Source: Pyrodictiaceae archaeon
GTDB taxonomy: Archaea; Thermoproteota; Thermoprotei_A; Sulfolobales; Pyrodictiaceae
NCBI GenBank assembly: GCA_027046525.1
Contig: JALTYD010000123.1
Location: 1 to 13,659, forward strand
Length of the DNA: 13,659 nt
Reading direction: 5' to 3'
Part shown: piece after piece, positions 200-12,163 of the stretch
Layout: each line of letters begins with the position of its first letter
Numbering within the stretch: position 1 is the stretch's first letter
Made by a program: the position numbers and the translations under genes
Notes under the pieces: model-generated
Database searches by the model: none
What the model was told of the DNA's origin: nothing
Seen by the model: the letters and a program-made list of their open reading frames with translations, nothing else

Positions 200-1423
200 C
201 TAGCCTAGTATGCTTCTTATAATACACTTGTATATCTCTACCATTTTGTTTAGCTCATCTACTGTTGTATATTCATTAGCTGTATGAGCTGTTTCAGCTA
301 CACCAGGTCCTAGGTTGATAGTCGGTACTCTTAACTCTCGGACATAGAAGACAGCATCGTTTCTTCCAGGTGAAATCTCTAGTGTAGGAGGAGTTTTTGT
401 TATAGATTCTGTACATTTTTGTGCAATTCTAACTAGTAGAGAATCTGGAGGAGTTAGTGATGCAGGTACTGCACTTCTCACTTCTACTTCGTAGTTGATT
501 GATAGTCTTTCTGCAGTTTTTTCTATATACTCTCTTAATTCATCTATAACTTGGTTGATATCTTCCTCGGGAAGAACTCTTCTATCGAAACTAAATAGGA
601 ACTCTCCAGGGACAATATTGTCTTTTTTCGACGTAGATTCTGCATAGCCACCTAAGACTATAGTTGGATAAGCATATTCTTCCTCCATGACTGGTGCTTT
701 TGTTTTTCTCTGTCTTAGTAGAGGCTCGTAGGATTTAGTGAACTCTAGTACTAGCTCAGATGCTTTTATGAAAGCATTTACACCACGCCATGGTATACTT
801 GCATGTACTTGTTTACCTCTGACTCTTACGATTCCTCTCACGAGCCCCTTATGGCCTATGATAACCTTAGATGTTGTTGAAGGCTCGCCGATGATGACAT
901 AATCTGGTCTAACTATCCCCTTCTCGACTATATAACGAGTACCAATTCCACCCGATTCTTCGTCTGGAACAAATGCTAGCTCTATAGTACCTCTAGGATT
1001 CCAGTTAGATTCTATCAACTCCGCAATAGACACTATTGTTGCTGCTATACCGCCTTTCATATCTGTAGTTCCACGACCATATACTCTACCATCTTCTATT
1101 ATAGCTTTGAACGGGTTGTACTCCCAGCCAGAACCTGGAGGTACAACATCGTAGTGTCCATTGAAGTGTAGTACTGGTTTTCCAGAGCCATAGCGAGCTA
1201 GTACGACATACCTAGGGTGTCCTCGGTGTAGTGGTGCATATGGATAGTATTTATCGAGATAGTTAGCTGGGATCTCAACTAGCTTAGCTTTGAATCCATA
1301 ACTCTCTAAGAGGTCTAGGAGGTACTCTGATATTTCAGCATAGTTTTTGCCAGGTGGATTTACTGTAGGAAACTCTACCAGCTTTACAAGTATATCTACT
1401 ACATTAAGACGAGAAGATGACAT
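200..1423 (-). CDS. M20-family metallohydrolase (ArgE/DapE/acetylornithine deacetylase-like)
   Basis: A 407-residue cytosolic zinc (or cobalt) dependent amidohydrolase/peptidase of the M20 family, of usual family length. All the metal-site landmarks are present: H90 and D92 in GHYDVVPPG, D121 in GRGTTDMKGG as the bridging aspartate, the catalytic E155 followed by E156 in PDEESGG, E180 in IGEPS, and H380 in ETAHTANEY near the C-terminus. The lid or dimerisation domain occupies about residues 190-300, with H207 in VHAS. Members remove acyl groups from amino acids (acetylornithine, succinyl-diaminopimelate) or cleave small peptides. Neighbouring genes give no hint of an arginine or lysine pathway, so the substrate stays open; it does not look like a dedicated LysW-deacetylase. 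The ATG start is preceded by a strong GGTGG Shine-Dalgarno motif. It diverges from the VWA operon and is followed by an EamA transporter gene, which may move the substrate or product. Confidence 0.88.
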   Translation of the reverse strand: MSSSRLNVVDILVKLVEFPTVNPPGKNYAEISEYLLDLLESYGFKAKLVEIPANYLDKYYPYAPLHRGHPRYVVLARYGSGKPVLHFNGHYDVVPPGSGWEYNPFKAIIEDGRVYGRGTTDMKGGIAATIVSIAELIESNWNPRGTIELAFVPDEESGGIGTRYIVEKGIVRPDYVIIGEPSTTSKVIIGHKGLVRGIVRVRGKQVHASIPWRGVNAFIKASELVLEFTKSYEPLLRQRKTKAPVMEEEYAYPTIVLGGYAESTSKKDNIVPGEFLFSFDRRVLPEEDINQVIDELREYIEKTAERLSINYEVEVRSAVPASLTPPDSLLVRIAQKCTESITKTPPTLEISPGRNDAVFYVRELRVPTINLGPGVAETAHTANEYTTVDELNKMVEIYKCIIRSILG

Positions 1424-1576: not shown

Positions 1577-2524
1577 ATGCTAGCCAAAATCAGAAAAGTA
1601 GTAAAAAAGCTCAAAGATAATCCTTATCTACTAGCTATGCTTATTGCACTACTACTCTACACCTCAAGTTTCTTAATAGGTTTATTTAGAAGTGGAGAAG
1701 CAGAAGAAGTAGATATAAGAGATTTACCAGAAGCCTTTGTTAGAGCAGCTAGATACTTAGTGATATACTCAGAAGAGCTAGAAGATATACGGATAGGAGG
1801 AAACTATACTACTAGAATAGATCCAACTGAGATAGATAATAATCTTGAGCTGCTATTGAAGCTGGAGAAGAAGATAGGAGGACGAAAAGAGACTTCGCTA
1901 GAAACACTACTCGTAGAAGCCCTCGACGACTATATTAGAATTAATAATGCTAGTTCTATCGGAGTAAAATCACTAAATATAACAGCTGAAGGCTATAAAG
2001 CTTCTAAACTAGCACTCGATTTATTAGCTCTTTGCAGAGTTGAAGAAGCTATACAGGCCTACCAGGCCTCTCAAAGTACAATAAAGAATTCTACGTATAT
2101 CTTAGCAGAAATACACTCTCTACTATTATTAGTTGAGAAAGAAGATCTTCTATCTACTGATCATAGGAAGATCTATGGCTGGGCTATTACAAATACATCT
2201 ACACTACTAGAGGGTCTTTATTGGACTAATCAGCTACTACTATTAGCTACAGAAAATCCATCTGTTTTCAAAAATGCGTGTAGAGTAGCTAGAGAAGGCG
2301 GCCAGCTAGCCTACAGCGATGAGAAGTTTATTTCAAACATCCTAGATAGTATAGATTTTGGGAAAATTTCAAGTATAAGTAGTAGTTCTTCATCCGCCAT
2401 AAAAGCTACTTTGCTAAAAGCTCTGAAGTCTACACAACAGGGTAGTACTACAGCTACTGCTCCCCTACAGAGTAGCGAAGAAGGGAGCGGAGCTGGTTAT
2501 AAAGAGGTAGAAGAGGATGATTAG
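1577..2524 (+). CDS. Single-pass membrane protein of unknown function, first gene of the VWA operon
   Basis: I do not recognise this 315-residue protein. It has a basic N-terminus (residues 1-14), one hydrophobic helix at about 17-37, and then a long hydrophilic, probably helical region (about 45-262) rich in Leu, Glu and Ala. It ends in a Ser/Thr-rich linker with a run of six serines near 268-273 and a very acidic end (VEEDD). The basic N-terminus suggests the bulk lies outside the membrane. Five N-x-S/T sequons there (for example NYT 76, NAS 124, NST 171) fit an archaeal glycosylated surface domain. The last 8 nt overlap the start of the first VWA gene, so translation is probably coupled. 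In bacterial Bat loci a helical repeat protein accompanies the VWA proteins; this one may play a comparable role, but that is inference from position. A GAGG site lies 8 nt before the ATG. Confidence 0.8.
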   Translation: MLAKIRKVVKKLKDNPYLLAMLIALLLYTSSFLIGLFRSGEAEEVDIRDLPEAFVRAARYLVIYSEELEDIRIGGNYTTRIDPTEIDNNLELLLKLEKKIGGRKETSLETLLVEALDDYIRINNASSIGVKSLNITAEGYKASKLALDLLALCRVEEAIQAYQASQSTIKNSTYILAEIHSLLLLVEKEDLLSTDHRKIYGWAITNTSTLLEGLYWTNQLLLLATENPSVFKNACRVAREGGQLAYSDEKFISNILDSIDFGKISSISSSSSSAIKATLLKALKSTQQGSTTATAPLQSSEEGSGAGYKEVEEDD

Positions 2525-3431
2525 TGTTGAGTTTAAATATCCATACATTTTATTATTTCTGCCTATCATCTTATCATTCCTTGTTCTAGTATCTACTAGG
2601 AAGTGGAAAAACTATCGTAGATTAGTAGAGACTTACTATTCTAAACCTTCACGTACATGGATTCTACTTACTATTACTAAAGTATTAGCAGTTGTGCTTG
2701 TGGTAGTTGCTTTATCCGAACCAGTACTAGTCTATGAGAAACTAGTCAGTATTAGTAGTGCTAGTGATGTAGAAACATATGGAAATATGACACCAGTAGA
2801 ACATATAGTGCTCGTAGATGTATCAAAGAGTATGAGTGGAGAACGAATAAAGATAGTGAAACAGTTCTTGACAAAGTATCTCTCTCTACTCCATAGTGTT
2901 GATAGAGTACAATTATACGTATTTGCTGCAGATATCGAGGGTCCTCTATGTAGTGGTACTCCTAGTCAGTGTATTAATGCAGTAGAAGAGATAGAAGCTG
3001 GGAGGAGATATAGTGCTATCGGAGATGCCATAGTCTTTGGAGCTGAGTATGCAAGGATTTCGCCAATACCTCCTATAGTACTCGTTGTAACTGATGGAGC
3101 AAACACATTAGGGTCTAGTCCTGTAGACGTTCTCGGTAATATCTCAGTTAATACTCCTATAGCTATAATACTAGTAGGAAATGATCCTAGATCAATTGAT
3201 CTCAGAATAAAAGCTACAGAAGAAGATATCCTACTATATAGTATTGATAGTCCTATATCATCGCTAATAGATGATATATCAAAGAGAGCATCAAGAGAAA
3301 CTAAGCTAGCTGCACTTAGAGGATCAGGTGAAGCGTATGTAGCTATAAAATACGAAGCAAATACACCATCTGTACTACTACTAGTTATTTCTGCTACCCT
3401 CTTATTAGTAGCTAGATTTGACCCCAACTAG
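2517..3431 (+). CDS. Membrane-anchored VWA-domain protein (BatA-like)
   Basis: A 304-residue protein with two N-terminal membrane helices (about 9-26 and 47-66) joined by a basic loop, a VWA domain (about 95-255) and a C-terminal helix (about 284-300). The basic loop predicts that the VWA domain is outside the cytoplasm. The metal-ion-dependent adhesion site reads DVSKS (101-105), with TDG at 192-194. The usual threonine is a serine in RYSAIGDAI (164-172). This architecture matches BatA/BatB-type proteins encoded beside MoxR ATPases, where the VWA domain binds partners through a divalent cation. Two cysteines (145 and 152) lie close enough to form a small disulfide loop. The gene overlaps the upstream gene by 8 nt and is followed by a second VWA gene after 18 bp. 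Long open stretches on the opposite strand are shadows of this gene. Confidence 0.85.
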   Translation: MISVEFKYPYILLFLPIILSFLVLVSTRKWKNYRRLVETYYSKPSRTWILLTITKVLAVVLVVVALSEPVLVYEKLVSISSASDVETYGNMTPVEHIVLVDVSKSMSGERIKIVKQFLTKYLSLLHSVDRVQLYVFAADIEGPLCSGTPSQCINAVEEIEAGRRYSAIGDAIVFGAEYARISPIPPIVLVVTDGANTLGSSPVDVLGNISVNTPIAIILVGNDPRSIDLRIKATEEDILLYSIDSPISSLIDDISKRASRETKLAALRGSGEAYVAIKYEANTPSVLLLVISATLLLVARFDPN

Positions 3432-3449
3432 AGTAGTAGGGGATCAATA

Positions 3450-4433
3450 ATGAATATAACATGTACAGAAGATATCTGCCTAGGTATCGAGTATCCCCAG
3501 ATACTTATCATAGGAGCAGTAGTAGTCGTAGCAGTACTCATCCTAGCTAGGAAGAGTTCTACGTGGGCAAAGAGAGTCTACACGATAAAACATCCACTCA
3601 CAGATACAGTAGGTAGTATAGTTGCTAGTAGTACTAGAGTAGAGAAGTTCTATCTCCTACTAGCTATACTAATATTTACTGCAGCTGCTTCACCATATAT
3701 TTCAACTAAGGAAGTAGTAGAGTTTGAAGAAGAAGCTCTAGGTAGACTAGAGATTAATGCAAGACCTATAGCTATCCTAGTTATAGATGTCTCTGGTAGT
3801 ATGCAGGGTATGAAAATAGAAAATGCAAAAGAAGCTCTCAGGGCCTTTATAGTTGAAGCAGAAGAAGTTTTCGATATAGGTCTAATCGCGTTTAATAACG
3901 ATATTGTGGCTACTGTACCTCCTACGAGTAATCTATCGAGACTATATAGTATTATAGACAGGCTAGTTGCTGGTGGAGGGACTATGTATAGCTATCCACT
4001 AAAAGTAGCTAGTAACTGGGCTAAACCCTATAGAGTATTCAATATCACTGTAGTTGTAGTCTTTGCTACAGATGGTATGCCTGCTGATCGTGGTATGTAC
4101 GATGTTGTTGTCGAAGAACTAGCTAACCTAGGTGTAGTTATTCACTCTATCATAATTGGCCGTGTACCCAATGGATACAATGTGTTGAAAAATACCGTGT
4201 CTGGGCCTACTGGTGGAGAAGTATACGAAGTAGAAGATATCAGCAAACTAGTAGATCTATATAAAGAGCTTGCATACAAACTTAAACAAGATGTAGAGGT
4301 TAGAGCAGACATAGTACTTAGGAAAGAAATATGGATGAAGAACAGGCTAACTAGATACTTTCTAGCTATAATTTTATCATTGCTGCTACTTAGATACCTC
4401 TATAGAGCAAGAGTGAACCCGTTATCACTTTAA
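3450..4433 (+). CDS. Membrane-anchored VWA-domain protein (BatA/BatB-like), second copy
   Basis: A 327-residue relative of the preceding VWA protein. It has membrane helices at about 17-33 and 66-80 with a basic segment between them, a VWA domain (about 106-275) and a C-terminal helix (about 303-317) followed by a short basic tail. The metal site is complete: DVSGS at 113-117, T178 in GGGTMY, and D208 with G209 in ATDGMP, so divalent-cation binding is likely. Topology by the positive-inside rule places the VWA domain outside. Two cysteines (5 and 10) sit in the short N-terminal segment, also predicted to be outside. Tandem VWA genes beside MoxR and DUF58 genes are the hallmark of Bat-type loci. 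The two copies here share architecture but little obvious sequence outside the motifs, so they probably have distinct partners. The ATG is preceded by an AGGGGATC ribosome site. Confidence 0.87.
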   Translation: MNITCTEDICLGIEYPQILIIGAVVVVAVLILARKSSTWAKRVYTIKHPLTDTVGSIVASSTRVEKFYLLLAILIFTAAASPYISTKEVVEFEEEALGRLEINARPIAILVIDVSGSMQGMKIENAKEALRAFIVEAEEVFDIGLIAFNNDIVATVPPTSNLSRLYSIIDRLVAGGGTMYSYPLKVASNWAKPYRVFNITVVVVFATDGMPADRGMYDVVVEELANLGVVIHSIIIGRVPNGYNVLKNTVSGPTGGEVYEVEDISKLVDLYKELAYKLKQDVEVRADIVLRKEIWMKNRLTRYFLAIILSLLLLRYLYRARVNPLSL

Positions 4434-4466
4434 TCAGCTGTGATGTCTATTAGAGAGGGGTCTAAA

Positions 4467-5300
4467 TTGAGCCAGAAATTCTACCTATTAGATGAGTATA
4501 TGGATAGCCTCATTGTAGACTCAGAGGGGCTTATATTCGGTAGAGGATGTGGTTATGAATACTATTCTAGCGGAGTTAGGATAAAAGTATGTATTGAGGT
4601 AAAAGCACAAAGAGTTATTCCTAATAGAGATAAGCTTGTAGAAATTCTTAGACATCGTGGTGTAGATATACCCGTAGATGCTACACTAGAATTTCTCGTA
4701 GTTAGAGCGAGAGAAGAAGGCCTAGATATACCACTAATAGAAGTTACATCTGATATAAAGATTGTCAAGAGCTACATAGATCCAAGCGAAATATATCTAG
4801 TAGATCGTATGCCAGATGCACGTCTACTAGTACTATTATCTAGTCCGAGAGAAGCATTATTTAGAGGAATTAGTCTACAGGAAGAGATACCACCACCTAG
4901 TCCAGACTTAGTTGAAGGGAAGATAGTTGTTAGTCTATCCAGGGGGCTGATAGGATTTGCACAATCTATTGTACTAGGGCCGAAGGAAGCTGGTATAAGA
5001 GTAGCACAGACTGGTAGAGGAGAGTTCTATTTCGCGTGGCTAGCATATCTATCGGAGGTGAAAAAGAGAGGATATACGAAGATATATTCTAAGCTAGCTG
5101 AGTATGCTGATCCCTACAAGAAGAAGAGACTACCACTAGAGGCTCTGAGAGAAGTAGAAGATATACTTGTTAGAGAGGATGCACCGAGAGATCTAATAGA
5201 GCTCATAGGAAAATACATTAAGAGTGAAAGTATAGGAGTATTCATCGACTTACCATGGAGTTCCATAAAGAAGCTAAGAGATGTAATTATTGTAGAGTAG
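4467..5300 (+). CDS. Unrecognised soluble protein, last gene of the VWA operon
   Basis: A hydrophilic protein of 277 residues from this start, with no membrane helix or signal peptide, so presumably cytoplasmic. I recognise no family. It seems to have an N-terminal alpha/beta part followed by a helical, Lys/Arg- and Glu-rich C-terminal third that ends in a hydrophobic strand. Two in-frame starts lie further upstream: GTG at 4440 and ATG at 4443. I prefer TTG at 4467 because AGAGAGGGG (4452-4460) sits 6 nt before it, while nothing like a ribosome site precedes the other two. Translation from 4443 would add eight residues. The gene follows the second VWA gene closely and is clearly part of the operon, so it may couple the membrane VWA proteins to something in the cytoplasm, but this is inference. 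Its stop codon abuts that of the convergent channel gene. Confidence 0.75.
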   Translation: MSQKFYLLDEYMDSLIVDSEGLIFGRGCGYEYYSSGVRIKVCIEVKAQRVIPNRDKLVEILRHRGVDIPVDATLEFLVVRAREEGLDIPLIEVTSDIKIVKSYIDPSEIYLVDRMPDARLLVLLSSPREALFRGISLQEEIPPPSPDLVEGKIVVSLSRGLIGFAQSIVLGPKEAGIRVAQTGRGEFYFAWLAYLSEVKKRGYTKIYSKLAEYADPYKKKRLPLEALREVEDILVREDAPRDLIELIGKYIKSESIGVFIDLPWSSIKKLRDVIIVE

Positions 5301-6374
5301 CTAGGTACTTTGTTTCTTCTTTATAACGATTATTTTCTCTCCTTTCTCGAGAACGAGGTCTCCGCTCTTTCCATCGACTATCTCTAGCTTATCACCTCTT
5401 ACTATTGCTAGTACTTTATAACCTGTTTTTGTTTCATAGTCTCTTAGGCTCCGAGTCTCATCGACACTTATCTCAGCTATATCTATGTCGTATCTAGCAG
5501 TAGTTATTCTCGATAAGAATCTAGCTACGCTAGGCTCAAAAGAACTACTAGCAAGTAGTCTCCCAAGAATAGCTATAGGTATTATGTTTTTAGCTCCTAT
5601 AGTCTCTAGTATATGTTCTGTTGTCTCTTCTCTCGCTAGACTAACTATCTTTGCTCTCTTGTTTAGTCTTCTTGCTAGTGCAGCTACATGTATGTTCTTT
5701 GAGTCGTCTTCGTAACAGACGATAATGCTATCTGCTTGCTCTACTCCTCCTCGTTTAAGTGTTTCTATCGATAAGTCTCCAACGATAAAATTTACTGGAG
5801 ACTCTCCTCGCGGAGGATGTTCTCTAACCCATCCAGTTTCGTCTCTAAAACCATTTGCAACTAGTTCACGGATAGTTTCCTCGCAGACAGGGCCTTCGCC
5901 AACAACTATGATCGACTTCTCTTTCAAGCGGCCAAGACCCAGAGAGGCTTTCATTGTAATCTCCAAGAAATAATCAGCTATTGTGGATATAAAGAGAGTA
6001 TATACCATTATACCAAATATAGAAGCCATTGCTGCGACTACTTTACCAGCACTTGATTCAGGTATTACGTCTCCATAGCCTACTGTTGCCATTGTAATAA
6101 TAGCCCAGTAGAGTGATATCCATACATTAACATCCTCTCGACCATAGAGTATATGTTCTGTGTAGTAGAATAGAGTAGAAGAAAATAGCCATGAGATAGT
6201 AAACACAACTAGTAATATTATGACTCTTTTTCTCAGAGCACTCTTGATCCTCCTCAGCAATCTAGATACTCGATAGAACACAATGAAGGCCAAGGCACCA
6301 TAGACCATAGAGTTGTCTCTAAATAACTCAGTTTTAAATGTGTGCTCCCCCAGATAATATATAGTTAACGGCAT
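5301..6374 (-). CDS. Potassium channel with cytosolic RCK (TrkA-N/TrkA-C) domain
   Basis: A 357-residue protein with a classic K+ channel pore: outer helix at about 50-70, pore helix and selectivity filter TVGYGD (97-102), and inner helix at about 111-137. An additional hydrophobic stretch near 23-36 may be a short extra helix. An RCK-N Rossmann domain (about 153-290) and a TrkA-C domain (about 293-353) follow, an arrangement like MthK and related ligand-gated prokaryotic channels. In the Rossmann fold the usual GxGxxG reads GEGPVC (159-164), so the third glycine is replaced and ligand preference may differ. The gene lies on the strand opposite to the flanking MoxR/VWA genes: only 12 bp separate its start from that of the MoxR gene, and its stop touches that of the VWA operon. 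No Shine-Dalgarno motif precedes the ATG, suggesting a nearly leaderless mRNA. Confidence 0.92.
   Translation of the reverse strand: MPLTIYYLGEHTFKTELFRDNSMVYGALAFIVFYRVSRLLRRIKSALRKRVIILLVVFTISWLFSSTLFYYTEHILYGREDVNVWISLYWAIITMATVGYGDVIPESSAGKVVAAMASIFGIMVYTLFISTIADYFLEITMKASLGLGRLKEKSIIVVGEGPVCEETIRELVANGFRDETGWVREHPPRGESPVNFIVGDLSIETLKRGGVEQADSIIVCYEDDSKNIHVAALARRLNKRAKIVSLAREETTEHILETIGAKNIIPIAILGRLLASSSFEPSVARFLSRITTARYDIDIAEISVDETRSLRDYETKTGYKVLAIVRGDKLEIVDGKSGDLVLEKGEKIIVIKKKQST
5309..5346 (+). terminator. Candidate T-rich terminator of the 1577-5300 operon
   Basis: Immediately after the operon's stop codon the plus strand carries several T-rich runs (ACTTTGTTTCTTCTTTAT, then TTATTTTCTCTCC). 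Archaeal RNA polymerase terminates on such oligo-T tracts without needing a hairpin. The run exists because the convergent channel gene encodes a Lys-rich C-terminus here, so terminator and coding sequence overlap. Confidence 0.4.
6352..6366 (+). promoter_or_regulatory. Candidate promoter of the MoxR gene, inside the channel gene's 5' end
   Basis: AGATAATATATAGTT is an excellent TATA-like element centred about 27 nt upstream of the MoxR ATG at 6387. This spacing predicts a leaderless transcript and fits the lack of a ribosome site before that ATG. The element lies within the first codons of the divergent channel gene. Confidence 0.55.
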
Positions 6375-6386
6375 GGACTAGATAGG

Positions 6387-7469
6387 ATGGGCGTAAGCAG
6401 TATGGATATACCAGTAGAAGCTATAGATCTAGATACTATTAAGAGAGATTGTAGATCTATCCTTGCTTCTATGTCTAAGATAGTTATTGGCTACGAGTCA
6501 GAGCTAAGGATAATGATAGCATCTATGCTAGCTAATGGCCATATACTACTTGAAGGAGTACCAGGGATAGCTAAAACAACAATAGCTAGAGGGTTTGCAA
6601 AACTACTAGGACTGCCTATAGGAGAAGAAAAAATCAAAATAGACAGTATACCATTCCGCGGATTTTCGAGGATACAGTTTACACCAGATCTAATGCCTAC
6701 AGATATTACTGGAAGCTTAATATGGAATCCACACGAGAAGATATTTCAGCCCTATTTCGGGCCAATATTCTCTTATTTAGTCTTAGCAGATGAAATTAAT
6801 AGAGCAACACCACGTACACAGAGTGCTCTACTAGAAGCTATGCAGGAACGTAGAGTAAGTATTGGAGGGCATTCTTATCCACTCGAGCTACGTAGCAGAG
6901 GTAAATGGTTCATTGTAATAGCTACTCAGAATCCAGTAGAACAGGAGGGTACCTATCCGCTCCCCGAAGCTCAGCTAGACAGATTCGCAGTTAGGATAAT
7001 AATGGGTTATCCAGGGAGCTTAGAAGAAGAAAAGAACATATACAAGTTGCACTCAATGAGGCTTGTAGAGCCTGTAGAAGAACTAGAACCTCTCACTGAT
7101 AGTAGCTGGCTAGTCCGTGTGCAAGAATTTATCGCTAAGAATGTAAGAGTAGAAGAAGATACTCTGAACCTAATTGCGAGAATCATAAGGAGTACACGGC
7201 CAGAAATTATAGAGCCTGTTGGAAAGTATTTTGAGCTAGGTGCTAGTCCACGTGCAGGTATAATGTTGCTACGAGTAGCAAAAGCATACGCAGCAATAAA
7301 TGGGAAAGAAGTAGTTGAACTAGATGATATTAGAAATGTTTTATTTAGTGTCTTAAACCACAGAGTAATACCAAATATCGAGACAATAATTGAGAGAGGA
7401 GGAAGATTTAGAGATAGAGTAGATGTTATAAAAGAAGGCCTCGAATACATTCTTAAAACTACTATCTAG
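6387..7469 (+). CDS. moxR: MoxR-type AAA+ ATPase
   Basis: A 360-residue AAA+ ATPase of the MoxR subfamily, a cytosolic hexameric chaperone-like enzyme that typically works with VWA proteins to activate or insert cofactors into partner complexes. Walker A is GVPGIAKTT (57-65), Walker B LVLADEIN (131-138), and sensor 1 ATQNP (179-183). The MoxR-typical segments TPRTQSALLEAMQE and GTYPLPEAQLDRF are intact, and the C-terminal lid domain (about 215-355) is complete. Length is about 30-40 residues above many MoxR proteins, mostly at the N-terminus. Methionines at positions 1 and 6 are both possible starts; the first fits the TATA spacing of a leaderless mRNA. It lies between two VWA genes upstream and a DUF58 gene downstream, the usual partners, although the channel gene and an ABC cassette intervene. 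Confidence 0.93.
   Translation: MGVSSMDIPVEAIDLDTIKRDCRSILASMSKIVIGYESELRIMIASMLANGHILLEGVPGIAKTTIARGFAKLLGLPIGEEKIKIDSIPFRGFSRIQFTPDLMPTDITGSLIWNPHEKIFQPYFGPIFSYLVLADEINRATPRTQSALLEAMQERRVSIGGHSYPLELRSRGKWFIVIATQNPVEQEGTYPLPEAQLDRFAVRIIMGYPGSLEEEKNIYKLHSMRLVEPVEELEPLTDSSWLVRVQEFIAKNVRVEEDTLNLIARIIRSTRPEIIEPVGKYFELGASPRAGIMLLRVAKAYAAINGKEVVELDDIRNVLFSVLNHRVIPNIETIIERGGRFRDRVDVIKEGLEYILKTTI
6404..6412 (-). promoter_or_regulatory. Candidate TATA box of the K+ channel gene, inside the MoxR gene
   Basis: On the minus strand this reads GGTATATCC, centred about 34 nt upstream of the channel ATG, which would give a leader of only a few bases. It overlaps codons 6-9 of the MoxR gene. The match is shorter than that of the MoxR promoter. 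Confidence 0.35.
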
Positions 7470-7547
7470 GATTGAAATTTTATCCCCCAAGGAATCTTAT
7501 TATAAACTAACTGACTATAGAGTAATCTATACGGGTTGTAGATCTAT
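7470..7547 (+). promoter_or_regulatory. Intergenic promoter region of the ABC-DUF58 operon
   Basis: This 78-bp AT-rich gap holds TTATTATAAAC (7497-7507) as a TATA candidate, giving a leader of about 20 nt. A weaker candidate, AATCTATA (7524-7531), would give a leaderless mRNA starting at the ATG. T-rich bases just after the MoxR stop (AATTTTATCC) could terminate some of the upstream transcription. No clear Shine-Dalgarno motif precedes the ATG at 7548, unlike all the following genes. Confidence 0.4.
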
Positions 7548-8471
7548 ATGGAGAATGTAATAGAGTTCCATTCTGTATATAAGATCTATAGAGGTAGTGT
7601 AGAAGCCCTCAGAGGTGCTACTTTTACTATACCCAGTGGTGTTATTGCAGGTCTCGTCGGTCCTAATGGTGCAGGTAAAACTACGTCGTTTAAATTAGCA
7701 CTCGGGTTCTTGAGGCCTAATTCTGGGAGAGTTTATACATTTGGTCTAGATCCATGGAGAGAAGAGGACAAAGTTAGGAGAAAAATAGGTTATTTACCTG
7801 AAAAACCTATCTATCCAGCTAATATAACAGTAGAAGATCTCTTAGAACATATTACTATGAGTAAGCAATTACCATTATCGGAAGTTAGAAAAGTTGAACG
7901 TATAACTGGTATAGAAGAATATCATTCACGTCCTATAGGTTCTCTCTCTAGAGGATATATACAGAGACTAGGCCTAGCTACTACACTCATCGGAGAACCA
8001 GAGCTACTTCTACTAGATGAGCCTACAGCAAATCTAGATCCAGCTGCTAGGATAGAGATCCTTGAACTCATTAAGACATTTGCAGAAGACCTAGGAGTTA
8101 CAGTAGTAGTATCAACGCATATTCTACCTGAAATGCAGCAGATTGCTAACTATCTCGTAGTAATCAAAGATGGTGTTATTGTGGAACATGGCTATATAGG
8201 AGATCTAGCACAGAAGTATTATGCTGAGACAATATACGAGATAAAGACTGCAGAGCCGAGAACTGTAGCAAGAGAACTCATAGGCGAGGAGTTTATTGTA
8301 GGAATAGAAGTCTCACCTAGTAAGCTTATTGTGAAGATTGCTCGTGGTACAAATACACAAGCAGAATCTCTTTTTAGTAGACTACTAGCCAAGAGGCTCA
8401 TCGAAGACTATAGGCTTGTTACAGGATCTATACAAGATCTTTACTTCAAGCTTACATCTAAGGAGGAGTAG
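7548..8471 (+). CDS. ABC transporter ATP-binding protein (ABC-2 export type)
   Basis: A 307-residue nucleotide-binding subunit, cytosolic, expected to dimerise and power the permease encoded next. Walker A is GPNGAGKTT (38-46) and the Q-loop region is GYLPEKP, with Glu in place of Gln as is common in this subgroup. The signature reads LSRGYIQRL (133-141) instead of LSGGQ, Walker B is LLLLDEP (153-159) and the switch histidine is H191 in STH. A C-terminal extension of about 80 residues after the nucleotide-binding fold is usual for DrrA/CcmA/GldA-like subunits. Such pairs export lipids, antibiotics or polymers, or act in cell-surface processes; the cargo here is unknown. It opens a tightly packed five-gene operon that ends in a DUF58 gene, which ties it to the MoxR-VWA genes rather than to a metabolic pathway. 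Confidence 0.93.
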   Translation: MENVIEFHSVYKIYRGSVEALRGATFTIPSGVIAGLVGPNGAGKTTSFKLALGFLRPNSGRVYTFGLDPWREEDKVRRKIGYLPEKPIYPANITVEDLLEHITMSKQLPLSEVRKVERITGIEEYHSRPIGSLSRGYIQRLGLATTLIGEPELLLLDEPTANLDPAARIEILELIKTFAEDLGVTVVVSTHILPEMQQIANYLVVIKDGVIVEHGYIGDLAQKYYAETIYEIKTAEPRTVARELIGEEFIVGIEVSPSKLIVKIARGTNTQAESLFSRLLAKRLIEDYRLVTGSIQDLYFKLTSKEE

Positions 8472-8484
8472 GAGGTTCTAGCTA

Positions 8485-9255
8485 GTGGATAAGAGTAGAG
8501 TAATGAATAGTGAGGGTGTACTACCAGTTCTAAAAAATATACTAAGGCATACAGAGTTTATACTTAGCTACTCGGATATAACAGTCTTCCTCCTAGCTGT
8601 ATTTGTATCTTCAGTACTAGCTATAGGTCTTCTACTACAAAATCCAGTTATATCGTTTATGATAATAGCTTATGGTTTAGGTATAGGATTAGTCGCAGGC
8701 AACATGGCGCAAAACCTAGTTGAAGAACTGAGTTCTGGTAGAGTACAGCTTTATCTCATGATGGGGCTTACTAGGAAGAGATATGCTCTTTCTTGGATGC
8801 TAGCTGTTGTTGTCTATCCCTGCATAGCAGTATTTCTAGCATTATCGATACCTATTATACTCATAGATCCTACATTATTCGCTAAACCTACTCCTATACT
8901 TGGTTTATATGCTCCTATGCCTATATTCAATGAACTATTTACTGCATTTATACTAACTACTATTACTGCTGGACTATCTGCTCTCTTACCAGCAATAACA
9001 ATTACTAAAAGAAGTGCAACTGTTGGTATACCTGTACTAGTAACTCTTGCATATCCATTTGTTGCTGGATTCATAGGAGCTATACTAAATCTCGAGCCAA
9101 GAAGTATTGCTATACTAGTAAGCCCTGGGAATACTATTTTCGCAATGATGATTAACGATTTTAGCCTTGACGCTATAGTTGCTCTACCACAGGCTATATT
9201 CATAGTAATACTACTAGCCAGCTACGTCTATATGGCTGGTAGAAGAGAGGTGTAG
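8485..9255 (+). CDS. ABC-2-type permease subunit
   Basis: A 256-residue integral membrane protein with about six hydrophobic helices (roughly 31-50, 54-73, 101-127, 150-171, 179-201 and 231-250). The cytoplasmic segment VEELSSGRVQLYLMMGLTRK after helix 2 resembles the coupling region of ABC-2 permeases, where an acidic residue and a Gly precede a hydrophobic stretch and basic residues. Its place 13 bp after the ATPase gene makes it the partner membrane subunit; with one permease gene it would act as a homodimer. I chose the GTG at 8485 because GGAGGT (8471-8476) stands 8 nt upstream; an ATG at 8503 has no such site. It is somewhat shorter than typical 6-TM ABC-2 proteins and lacks a large outer domain. 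The two following membrane proteins with large outer domains may supply that. Confidence 0.82.
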   Translation: MDKSRVMNSEGVLPVLKNILRHTEFILSYSDITVFLLAVFVSSVLAIGLLLQNPVISFMIIAYGLGIGLVAGNMAQNLVEELSSGRVQLYLMMGLTRKRYALSWMLAVVVYPCIAVFLALSIPIILIDPTLFAKPTPILGLYAPMPIFNELFTAFILTTITAGLSALLPAITITKRSATVGIPVLVTLAYPFVAGFIGAILNLEPRSIAILVSPGNTIFAMMINDFSLDAIVALPQAIFIVILLASYVYMAGRREV

Positions 9256-9256
9256 C

Positions 9257-10264
9257 TTGTTGCTACGCCAGCTACTACTAGTAGCTGTTGTTTCTATAAT
9301 TGTAATGGCGCTAGTCGAGCTCTATATAGCTATATACGAGCCAGAAACAGTAGCACCTTTTACTGAGTGTGGAGGACCTCTAGGTTCAGGTCCACTACCA
9401 CGCTTCATAGCAACAGCTGATGGAAGAATATATGTAGTAAGTGGAGACTTTATAAATCTCTACAATCTACAGACTATTTATTATCGCCTATCTAGCGGTA
9501 GAAGTTTAGTTTATCTAAGAGTGTGGAGAGAGGCTTGGGGAGGATCAACATCATATGTACCTACCTACTTAGTTAAAGTTAATGGTAGTTTTTCTGAAGC
9601 TAGAGAAGACTGTAGAGTATACTTAGTGGATAGGAATTCTCTCATGAATGTATCTATTATCTATAATCCTTTCGCAAAGAGATACTTTGAAGGAATATAT
9701 TTTGAAGAAAAACCAGGAGAAACTAATCTTATAGCAATGCTAGAGAAACTAGCTGTAGGTAAATCTGATAATTGTGTATTCTTAGATAAAGCTGGTGAAG
9801 TTGTAAGAGTGTACCTTGATGCTAATAGAGTAAAGAAACTATTAACAAAGCCACAACCATACTCTAGAGATTTCTTCCTAGTAGTTATTACCAAGCTTGA
9901 TGGAGAAAAAATCAAACTAAGTATACCGCAGTATCCAAACATAGAGGATCTAAGCGACTTAGTTAAGCTAATACGTAAATATACTATAGGTAGCTCAGCA
10001 GATACTAATCAGAGTATTCCTAGTGATCTCCTACTAGCTATATACAATACTATCGTACCATCTGGTAGCAGTATTTGTTCAAACATAGGGTATACTACTA
10101 AGATAGGAACTGAAGAAATCCTTAGAACTCTATCAGCACTAGTAGTTGCAGGAGGAATACTAGTATATGACTATAAGAGTAATAGTAGGAAGTACAAAAA
10201 GGTCTTTACTAGAATAGCGAGATTGTTTAGTAGACTAAGGAGAAGAGGAGAGAAGAGTGTATAG
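9257..10264 (+). CDS. Bitopic-anchored membrane protein with four-cysteine outer domain, paralogue A
   Basis: A 335-residue protein of no family I recognise. One helix at each end (about 5-27 and 288-304) flanks an outer domain of about 260 residues, and the C-terminal tail is strongly basic and so cytoplasmic. The domain carries cysteines at 38, 119, 173 and 274, enough for two disulfides, which fits an oxidising exterior in a hyperthermophile. It also has sequons at NGS 109, NVS 131 and NQS 251. The next gene encodes a clear paralogue: DNCVFL versus DSCNFL, TKLDGEKIKLS versus LKLDGSKIPLS, and matching TIVPS...IC and YDYK segments. The start is TTG at 9257 or 9260, both following the GAGGTG site (9247-9252) that overlaps the permease stop. 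The gene overlaps its paralogue by 8 nt. It is likely an accessory subunit of the ABC pair or of the MoxR-VWA assembly (inference). Confidence 0.8.
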   Translation: MLLRQLLLVAVVSIIVMALVELYIAIYEPETVAPFTECGGPLGSGPLPRFIATADGRIYVVSGDFINLYNLQTIYYRLSSGRSLVYLRVWREAWGGSTSYVPTYLVKVNGSFSEAREDCRVYLVDRNSLMNVSIIYNPFAKRYFEGIYFEEKPGETNLIAMLEKLAVGKSDNCVFLDKAGEVVRVYLDANRVKKLLTKPQPYSRDFFLVVITKLDGEKIKLSIPQYPNIEDLSDLVKLIRKYTIGSSADTNQSIPSDLLLAIYNTIVPSGSSICSNIGYTTKIGTEEILRTLSALVVAGGILVYDYKSNSRKYKKVFTRIARLFSRLRRRGEKSV

Positions 10265-11243
10265 ATACCTGTTATTAATGACTCTTATAGTAGTGGCGAT
10301 AGTACTAGCTGCCTATATCGCTATAGTGCTTAAATCTCCACAGATAGAAATATCAACTCATTGTACAGATAAAAGAATGTTAAATAGAGATTTGCCTGTT
10401 TTCGTGCTAGTAGATAATGATCTATATGTTCTCGGTAGTATTGGTGGAAGGTTATGGTATAGAAGTCCTCCTCTCTTTAGAGAAGCCAAAGAAGTAGAAT
10501 TCATACTATATCCTAGCTATCTGAGGTATAAGAGAGGGTCTACCACTACTACACCACAACTAAAACCACCATATGTAGAAGAATGTACAATATATCTGCT
10601 TAGTGGCGATAGCTATGAGAATATTACGTTAACCTATACTTACATAGCAGGAGATTCTATAAGGTGGGGGCCTCCTCGTGAACTACTAGTATGGGGGAAG
10701 AAGGGAGAAGTACTAATTGAGTTGATAGAGAGACAAGCTCTCTCTAAACTAGATAGTTGCAATTTTCTCCTAGGCGGTATTGATAGACTAGTAGTAGATA
10801 TTGAGACTTTTAAATCTCTAATGAAAATAGGAAGTACACCAACAAGTCCTCAGCCTCTACGCTACTCGTTTGCACTAGTAATATTATTAAAACTAGATGG
10901 AAGTAAAATTCCACTAAGTGTTGGAAACAAGCTTATTAGCATGGATAAGGCGGTTAAAGATACAGTTAGTATGTATATTAATAGTTCTTCGTATAATCTA
11001 ACGATAGTTAATGCTATGTATAATACATACGAGAATACCATTGTACCTAGTTTTATCTGTACTAGTATAAACTACGTAACGACTATATCTCCAGGATACA
11101 TACTACGTGGATCTTCTCTACTAATAGCATGTAGTACACTATTAATATATGACTACAAGAGGAATCCTAAGATCTATAGAATGCTCTTCGCGAGATTCAA
11201 GAAGATAAAAGATCTAGCTAAGAGACTTAGGAGGCGACAATAG
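10257..11243 (+). CDS. Bitopic-anchored membrane protein with four-cysteine outer domain, paralogue B
   Basis: A 328-residue paralogue of the preceding gene product with the same plan: N-terminal helix (about 4-24), outer domain, second helix (about 284-298) and a basic cytoplasmic tail (RFKKIKDLAKRLRRR). Outer-domain cysteines at 36, 110, 168 and 268 line up in order and context with 38, 119, 173 and 274 of paralogue A, so the cysteine framework is the conserved feature of an otherwise divergent pair. An extra cysteine (292) lies in the second helix. Sequons NIT 122, NSS 242 and NLT 247 agree with an outer location. The start is GTG at 10257 with GAGGAGA upstream; GTGTATAG contains both this start and the preceding stop. 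The pair probably forms a heterodimer, which would explain retention of two diverged copies. Function unknown. Confidence 0.8.
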   Translation: MYRYLLLMTLIVVAIVLAAYIAIVLKSPQIEISTHCTDKRMLNRDLPVFVLVDNDLYVLGSIGGRLWYRSPPLFREAKEVEFILYPSYLRYKRGSTTTTPQLKPPYVEECTIYLLSGDSYENITLTYTYIAGDSIRWGPPRELLVWGKKGEVLIELIERQALSKLDSCNFLLGGIDRLVVDIETFKSLMKIGSTPTSPQPLRYSFALVILLKLDGSKIPLSVGNKLISMDKAVKDTVSMYINSSSYNLTIVNAMYNTYENTIVPSFICTSINYVTTISPGYILRGSSLLIACSTLLIYDYKRNPKIYRMLFARFKKIKDLAKRLRRRQ

Positions 11244-11245
11244 TA

Positions 11246-12163
11246 TTGGCTAGGCCGAGAGACCAGTGTAATCTAGCATTTACAGCATACAAGCTAGCTT
11301 CTGCTGATGCCACTATACTATTTACTGGAATGTCTAGGAGTAGGAAGATAGGATTAGGAGTAGAGTACATTGGTACCCGAGAGTATAGTCTAGGTGATGA
11401 TGCTAAGCGTATCGACTGGATAACAACAGCACGTAGTATCGATATTAATGGAGAATATAAACTGATGGTAAAAGAATTCGAAGAAGAACAGCTAGTAGAG
11501 ACTATGATCTTCCTAAATATCGGCTATTCTATGAGCTTTTGGGATAAGCTAGGAGTAGCTGTCTACATATCTTCGATAGCGTTATTTGTAGCTACTTTGA
11601 GGAATGATAAGGTAATCTTTGCTTTATCACCTAGTACAACAAGTAGTAGAGATCTAGAGTTTATACGTACTAGTAATCCACGTAGTATCATTGCTGCTCT
11701 GCCTAGGAAAGTATGTAGTTCAGAACCTGATAGTAGGAGTAGACTTAGAAGCCTAGTAGAGTATCTATCCCGCTTAAAGAAGCTTAGAGGTATACTCATT
11801 ATCACAGACTATAGCCATGACTTTGATGAACTACGAGAATTAGTCGAAGCTACGAAAAGCTTAGGGAAAAATCTCGGGCTGGTATTCATAGTAAAGAGCT
11901 ATGAGATCTCACCACCAATTGATGCTATAGATACACTACTCGTAGTAAAAGGTAGCGAGTTAACAGTAGAAACACCTCTACGAGAATATATGGATAGTAT
12001 CAAGAAACATATACGTAATGTGAGAGCACTTGTTGCTTCGAACTTTATACCATTCATAGAAATCTACGGGCTAGTTCATGCAAGAAAACATGTATACAAA
12101 ATAGCTACAATCTACGATAGTATTCGTAGAAAGACAATAACGATGCAATATCTCAGAGGCTAA
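11246..12163 (+). CDS. DUF58-domain protein with degenerate VWA metal site
   Basis: A 305-residue soluble protein. The DUF58 signature is clear: RSRKIGLGVEYIGTREYSLG followed by DDAKRIDWITTAR (residues 31-63). DUF58 proteins contain a VWA-like fold after this segment and are the standard partners of MoxR ATPases. Here the strand that should carry the first MIDAS aspartate reads IFLNIGYSM (88-96), with Asn where Asp is normal, so metal binding is doubtful. The usual N-terminal membrane helices of DUF58 proteins are missing, making it cytoplasmic. The start is TTG at 11246 with a strong AGGAGGCGA site (11229-11237) 8 nt upstream; only 2 bp separate it from the preceding stop. As last gene of the ABC operon it connects that operon to MoxR and the VWA genes. 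Confidence 0.85.
   Translation: MARPRDQCNLAFTAYKLASADATILFTGMSRSRKIGLGVEYIGTREYSLGDDAKRIDWITTARSIDINGEYKLMVKEFEEEQLVETMIFLNIGYSMSFWDKLGVAVYISSIALFVATLRNDKVIFALSPSTTSSRDLEFIRTSNPRSIIAALPRKVCSSEPDSRSRLRSLVEYLSRLKKLRGILIITDYSHDFDELRELVEATKSLGKNLGLVFIVKSYEISPPIDAIDTLLVVKGSELTVETPLREYMDSIKKHIRNVRALVASNFIPFIEIYGLVHARKHVYKIATIYDSIRRKTITMQYLRG

Follow-up and report, generated by a model that had tools for sequence, protein, structure and literature searches.

The locus

The window analysed here is the complete studied contig of 13,659 bases (JALTYD010000123.1 of assembly GCA_027046525.1, from an archaeon of the Pyrodictiaceae; assembly completeness 75.9%). It carries ten plus-strand genes, lettered A–D and F–K, which span 1577–12163 and fall into nine families: an anchored helical protein (A), two VWA proteins (B and C), a soluble protein (D), a MoxR ATPase (F), an ABC-2-type ATPase and permease pair (G and H), a membrane protein present as two copies (I and J, one family) and a DUF58 protein (K). 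The association of these genes is firm and not accidental, and we favour the reading, with a probability of roughly 0.55, that they encode one conserved membrane-spanning system in which MoxR drives assembly, maturation or export at the cell envelope and the ABC-2 unit serves as conduit.

All ten genes proposed in the original prediction are present in this span and on this strand, and Pfam bears out its two VWA proteins, MoxR ATPase, DUF58 protein and ABC ATPase. Gene A (1577–2524) encodes a protein with an N-terminal membrane anchor, an outer domain, a Ser/Thr/Gly-rich linker and a C-terminal acidic tail. It is followed by B (2517–3431; Pfam VWA, 9.1e-8), a BatA/B-like VWA protein with two N-terminal transmembrane segments, the metal-site motif DVSKS and a C-terminal transmembrane segment, and by C (3450–4433; VWA, 9.6e-16), a second, BatA-like VWA protein with the metal-site motif DVSGS, whose C-terminal transmembrane segment was judged by eye. 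D (4440–5300) encodes a soluble, putatively double PRC-barrel-like protein, F (6387–7469; AAA_3/MoxR 1.4e-51, AAA_lid_2 7.7e-15) a MoxR AAA+ ATPase that has intact ATPase motifs and belongs to an orthologous group of its own, and G (7548–8471; ABC_tran 2.6e-24) a DrrA/GldA-like ABC ATPase with intact Walker A (GPNGAGKTT), signature (LSRGYIQR), Walker B (LLLLDEP) and H-loop. H (8485–9255) is an ABC-2-type permease of about six transmembrane segments, recognised by family profile; I (9257–10264) consists of a transmembrane segment, an outer domain, a second transmembrane segment (taken from the alignment and a weak model) and a basic tail; J (10257–11243) is a second copy of this family with 29–33% identity to I; and K (11246–12163; DUF58, PF01882, 1.6e-14) is a soluble DUF58 protein in which the metal-site aspartate is replaced by asparagine (NIGYS). 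A, D, H, I and J gave no match above the Pfam cut-off.

The predicted overlaps and very short gaps hold throughout the run (–8 to +78 bases between neighbours) except between D and F, where a space of 1086 bases is occupied by a gene that had been overlooked: E (5301–6374, minus strand), a K+ channel with a TrkA-N domain (Pfam Ion_trans_2 1.2e-15, TrkA_N 6.7e-14). In none of the 20 related loci described below is E the best match of an open frame (E-value ≤ 1e-3), and we rejected the channel as a component of the set. Only 12 bases separate its start from that predicted for MoxR on the opposite strand, so that one of these start codons may have been misassigned. The flanking genes encode an M20 peptidase (200–1423, minus strand) and an S-adenosylhomocysteinase (from 12512, plus strand); a 45% homologue of the peptidase adjoins the set in another genome (L036 of G122, 7133–8359).

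Recurrence across genomes

Orthologues of this MoxR protein are present in 19 of 147 genomes of the class, at 424 bits or more compared to 238 bits or fewer for other MoxR proteins (a split gene in G144 apart). As related loci we took the surroundings of 20 orthologous MoxR copies from 18 genomes, leaving out the studied copy. D and DUF58 lie within the cluster in all 20, and G, H, an I-like protein, C, B and A do so as far as the contig reaches; all nine slots are occupied in 16, the remaining four (L035, L039, L041 and L050) being cut at contig ends. Among the full loci we counted L049, in which A is partial at the contig end and MoxR is split in two frames, and in L033 and L040 the I slot was assigned by an I/J profile search after a first profile had missed it and the H slot by position. 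The I gene is single in each related locus read and present as two copies (I and J) in the studied contig. Additional open frames lie within the cluster of L046.

The family profiles were built from the set itself, so that set members are expected by construction and absence elsewhere is the informative part. The D profile finds the same 19 of 147 class genomes as the MoxR group, and in this sample D always shares a cluster with orthologous MoxR, while the I/J profile finds 21, namely those 19 plus G103 and G135, whose short contigs carry remaining set members up to the contig ends. D and I/J are thus jointly present in 19 and jointly missing from 126 of the 147 genomes (hypergeometric 5.7e-22, uncorrected for kinship). 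The A profile matches 23 genomes, the 21 with I/J and, marginally, G133 and G134 (E about 1e-4). Matches to the H profile occur in 28 genomes, of which 18 score at least 180 bits and all bear the set, G049 scores 102 bits and the nine others about 40 or less; it finds no match in G017, G038 or G135. A weak A fragment was seen in G122, and in G111 a short B-like fragment follows a second copy of A (L206, 9193–10468), with no MoxR of the group alongside.

Beyond the class sample, the D profile has matches in 30 of the 214 genomes examined in the order and in 24 of the 398 sampled from the phylum, the latter comprising nine of the order, nine strong matches outside it (eight in the Thermofilaceae-like family f38, one in f70) and six weak ones. 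The full set recurs in f38 in a different gene order (L097, L099, L101 and L102), with I at only 20–25 bits; L103 has eight of the families and an unassigned frame at the I slot, and four short contigs of this family (L095, L096, L098 and L100) bear part of the set. Among the weak matches, D lies beside MoxR at a contig end in L104, and the set was not seen in L105 and L107–L109. In distant lineages the D-like gene adjoins a multi-pass membrane protein with a terminal zinc ribbon (L104, 8620–9567; L105, 10421–11362; L106, 8232–9122), that of L104 being weakly YdjM-like. Two copies of the cluster start occur in three genomes: G102 (L041, L042), G144 (L049, L050) and G176 (L115, L116; contamination of this assembly is 7%).

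Gene order varies while content persists, both across families of the order and in f38. Among 50 loci, the pairs A–B (24/24), B–C (29/29), F–G (33/33), G–H (37/37) and H–I (28/28) always share a strand, with D–F (29/41), D–K (12/38) and C–I (0/22) less regular; DUF58 and MoxR are 3.8 kb apart in the studied contig and within about 2 kb of each other in the 20 related loci. In G161, which belongs to another genus of family f3, all nine families are kept but split over two contigs. One carries MoxR–D–DUF58 (L113, 8568–11553), flanked by 8.6 kb and 3.3 kb that hold no other member, and the second, of 133 kb, carries A–B–C facing I–H–G (L211, 6679–12243; A 146, B 281, C 347, I 59, H 109 and G 413 bits). 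Since G161 retains all nine families unlinked, a shared role is better supported than it would be by neighbourhood alone.

The encoded proteins

The Walker A and B residues of MoxR are invariant in all 19 aligned sequences (the pieces in L049 and L050 were left out). The metal-site motif DxSxS is present in 27 of 28 aligned B proteins, the remaining one being cut, and DxSGS is clear in 27 of 30 C proteins, of which one is cut and in two the pattern fell on another stretch. B and C have the N-terminal hydrophobic segments and the membrane topology of BatA/B, yet the BatA N-terminal model PF07584 has no match in the studied proteins in Pfam, and the NCBIfam BatA/BatB and two_anch models match below their cut-offs only. 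No TPR or BatD partner was matched among the ten proteins in Pfam or NCBIfam. Hydrophobic segments, and basic loops judged by eye, predict that the VWA domains lie outside and MoxR, DUF58, the ABC ATPase and D inside, which agrees with the sidedness originally proposed.

A consists of a single N-terminal membrane segment, a helical domain with two mostly conserved cysteines (153 and 235) and a low-complexity linker, and in the studied contig it ends in the acidic tail ...GSGAGYKEVEEDD. Across the family the C-terminus follows the pattern GAGYxxPxSDD or variants of it (GSYNYTETD, GYSGSMEDD), and the last residue is Asp in 25/25 proteins, in the studied contig and in four further complete copies (L206–L208 and L211; the cut copy L209 is uncounted). 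A profile search of PDB with A gave nothing significant.

D resembles a double PRC barrel, and we regard this as a candidate assignment. The family has 19 invariant positions across 21 sequences, and the model of the studied protein (predicted local distance difference test, pLDDT, 91.3) has two strand-rich halves. Four of 36 relatives bear a PRC-barrel name, and two intermediates match both the D profile and, above its cut-off, the PRC-barrel model PF05239: P0041 (3.4e-18 and 2.3e-5) and a protein of L107 (5.7e-9 and 1.2e-7). Weak PRC-barrel matches occur in only 6/33 relatives (the best at 0.046), the studied D itself has no Pfam match, and a PDB profile search with D found nothing significant, with one match at 0.051 to another protein.

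The single H sequence has no Pfam match, and we assign it as the ABC-2 permease of the original prediction because its family profile matches the solved permease PmtD (E 6.1e-7, profile positions 28–255 of 260). We guess from gene position that I/J is an accessory protein of the ABC-2 unit. Homologue searches with the family returned 5 and 4 proteins, those of the studied contig included, and a PDB profile search with I gave nothing significant. The outer-facing cysteine domains of the original prediction are weakened by the alignment, in which the I/J cysteines are not kept across the family, and we rejected a cysteine domain as a trait of this family. We likewise rejected, at the level of Pfam, a relationship of I/J to DUF4350/GldG, as PF14258 has no match in 19 I/J members (the predicted I/J structure is poor); nor does this model of an anchored outer protein match any of the studied proteins, A included.

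Degenerate ABC ATPases and the nature of the motor

The most serious alternative to a MoxR-driven system is an ordinary ABC-2 exporter, for efflux of drugs, lipids or peptides, with the ABC ATPase as its motor and the MoxR–DUF58–VWA proteins as a helping chaperone set. It would account for the DrrA/GldA-like character of G, whose Walker A, signature, Walker B and H-loop are retained in 17/17 true G proteins in alignment columns, for the resemblance of H to an exporter permease and for a stand-alone G–H–(weak I) cassette in G049. However, in both genomes of genus g9 and in L041 of G102 the G slot holds a degenerate protein of 255–286 residues (L033, 10548–11405; L040, 8615–9472; L041, 16004–16768) that is without Walker A, signature and the catalytic Walker B aspartate. 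Profile comparison relates the full length of this pseudo-ABC protein to G (258 columns, probability 86, E 5.6e-6) and finds nothing with MoxR (probability 0.2), and in the one copy examined, that of L033, Pfam found no ABC domain. The accompanying pseudo-H was identified from position and hydrophobic character, its profile comparison with H being unconvincing (probability 1.3). The other module of G102 (L042) is normal.

The MoxR proteins of these same three loci, which are among the 19 aligned, have all ATPase motifs, a retention that partly follows from the selection of loci by MoxR. With MoxR still intact beside a decayed ABC ATPase, the essential motor is probably MoxR, and the ABC unit would probably act as a conduit or scaffold able to do without hydrolysing ATP itself. 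Almost every genome that bears the set moreover keeps the ABC cassette alongside the MoxR set, and together these observations make the exporter an unlikely explanation.

Relation to known systems

As controls we took 80 of the 583 relatives matched by a scan with the MoxR alignment, all of them non-orthologous MoxR loci from named genomes and 45 of them with at least 20 kb. By profile, these loci contain DUF58 in 51/80, a B-type VWA protein in 23/80, a C-type VWA protein in 3/80 and an ABC ATPase in 6/80, counts that are lower bounds as archaeal profiles miss distant homologues; the D, A, I and H profiles match none of the 80. A contig scan with a single MoxR protein yielded none that was confirmed.

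Bat-type loci, known from aerotolerance in Bacteroides, combine MoxR and DUF58 with the VWA proteins BatA and BatB. The archaeal set is like them in its MoxR, its soluble DUF58 protein, its two VWA proteins with N-terminal membrane segments and its weak BatA/BatB matches, and unlike them in adding A with its acidic tail, D, the ABC-2 pair and I/J. A single run in Clostridiales UBA4039 (L200) comprises a DrrA-type ABC ATPase, an ABC-2 permease, a 461-residue protein, MoxR, DUF58 and a BatA-type VWA protein, and ends in a protein with VWA and GATase1-like domains (13631–16150). It thus shares the ABC-2 pair, MoxR, DUF58 and two VWA proteins with our set, but no D or A homologue was detected in it, its third protein and second VWA protein differ, and its MoxR lies outside the archaeal orthologous group.

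Archaeal loci described in the accessible part of PMC5898192 include arCOG01314 (DUF4350/GldG-like)–vWA–MoxR, predicted there to form a secretion or remodelling complex, and the arCOG01994/01996 loci, which combine a SalXY-type ABC transporter with an AAA+ ATPase. Both resemble the studied locus, so far as that part goes, in placing an archaeal MoxR/AAA+ ATPase beside vWA or ABC genes and unnamed membrane proteins, the likeness of arCOG01314 extending to GldG as part of an ABC transporter. Compared with the systems as set out there, I/J and A have no DUF4350 match, no Ig-like proteins were matched, and our set includes DUF58, the PRC-barrel-like D and the ABC-2 pair. In the literature searched, which left subscription journals mostly outside, none of the matches listed describes the nine-family set. 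The proposal that this composition is undescribed in Crenarchaea agrees with that result for the set as such, but its general kind is known from the Clostridiales run and the arCOG loci, and it is well supported that the locus is an archaeal variant of the MoxR–DUF58–VWA (Bat-like) kind rather than something categorically new.

NorQ–NorD and RavA–ViaA also pair a MoxR ATPase with a VWA-type partner, which in both is cytosolic. In the studied locus an outward orientation is predicted for the clear VWA proteins, and the cytosolic VWA-like protein is DUF58. Metal insertion or maturation of a respiratory complex, as by those two pairs, would be a further possible task, and such roles are reported for MoxR/VWA pairs in the accessible parts of PMC9976466, PMC13036017 and PMC10585395; but the nine conserved families include neither a respiratory nor a metalloenzyme gene, and we consider this less likely still than the exporter.

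Partial sets and patchy presence

Several observations weigh against a single obligate system. The set is present in only six of the ten class-sample genomes of genus g20 and absent from G042, G047, G071 and G107, which are 94–99% complete, and so is not essential to this genus. The complete genome G049, of the same family as the studied contig, carries the G–H–I cassette alone (L205, 7839–10491; G 361, H 90 and I 30 bits, the I match covering only 37 aligned columns), near a PD-(D/E)XK gene and a PaREP1 gene; MoxR, VWA, DUF58, D and A are not beside it, A is absent from the genome and its MoxR proteins fall outside the orthologous group. Conversely, D, MoxR, DUF58, two VWA proteins and an A-like protein occur in L106 of G419 without such ABC genes; the profiles find neither H nor A of this type in the genome, and the A-like protein ends in PRPQG, not Asp. 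G218 bears a D-like gene at 169 bits with no set around it (L110, 3022–3864), and no orthologous MoxR was found in its 72%-complete assembly. In the studied contig itself the channel gene E interrupts the run, the DUF58 metal-site motif of K is NIGYS where most relatives have DxSxS or DxTxS, and the I/J model is poor (pLDDT 54.6); to these is added the selection of loci by MoxR noted above. The D-like gene of L110 adjoins a gene for a 449-residue protein with an N-terminal hydrophobic segment.

From the partial sets in G049, G419 and G218 and the patchiness in g20 it follows that G–H–I and the MoxR/VWA/D core are two sub-units that are together usually, not always. A step further would be to see here two independent systems, one Bat-like (MoxR/DUF58/VWA) and one ABC transporter, adjacent by history or chance: each half does occur without the other in one genome, and an unrelated channel gene has entered the run. 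We consider this improbable, as equal content is kept in rearranged orders across families, even split over two contigs, and D and I/J are present or missing jointly in all but two of the class genomes. The expectation that relatives would carry the genes together was thus upheld by co-occurrence across families, changing orders and the split set of G161, and qualified by the single separations in G049 and G419.

A defence or conflict system of the MoxR–vWA ternary type is more improbable again: MoxR–vWA pairs do occur in predicted conflict systems in the accessible part of PMC7159879, F has a bpMoxR match (3.3e-5, below cut-off) and the set is patchy within g20, as accessory systems are, but PADLOC-DB gave, apart from two weak matches (B 1.8e-4, I 0.0083), only generic AAA/ABC ones and no named system, model-library scans of the studied proteins found no effector domain, and the clear VWA proteins are membrane-anchored and Bat-like. 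Accidental proximity is rejected by profile co-occurrence, the reordered loci and the split set of G161.

A proposed mechanism and its significance

Conserved linkage and content partly uphold the original view of the genes as one membrane-spanning system; that their products also form one physical machine we infer from content, topology and joint retention. In the MoxR-driven system that we favour, a cytosolic MoxR ring would work on the membrane via DUF58, as its VWA-like partner, and the putative double PRC-barrel protein D. The ABC-2 unit (G and H), with I/J as accessory, would transport a substrate across the membrane or relay a conformational signal through it, and the membrane-anchored VWA domains of B and C, together with A, would form the outside part that is assembled or gated. 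The likely task would be ATP-driven assembly, maturation or export of a component of the cell envelope.

Acidic ligands dock in integrin I domains, which offers a parallel for the tail of A. The terminal Asp, carried on a flexible linker, may dock in a VWA metal site, and on the pattern of its C-terminal residues the tail would be a candidate ligand of that site. A bolder version of this reading, which we put forward tentatively, is of an undescribed archaeal envelope machine in which MoxR would drive the outward VWA proteins through the ABC-2 unit as a conduit of force or signal, with a pseudo-ATPase in some species and the C-terminus of A as the VWA ligand.

For the widespread MoxR–VWA systems only a minority of targets is known. 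Outward-facing VWA proteins raise the question of how an ATPase in the cytosol can act on the far side of the membrane, and the set described here offers a candidate answer, in which the ABC-2 unit would link the two. The lineages with a dead ABC ATPase constitute a natural experiment, and the tail of A offers a short candidate docking peptide that can be tested, all in hyperthermophilic archaea, about whose envelope biogenesis little is understood.

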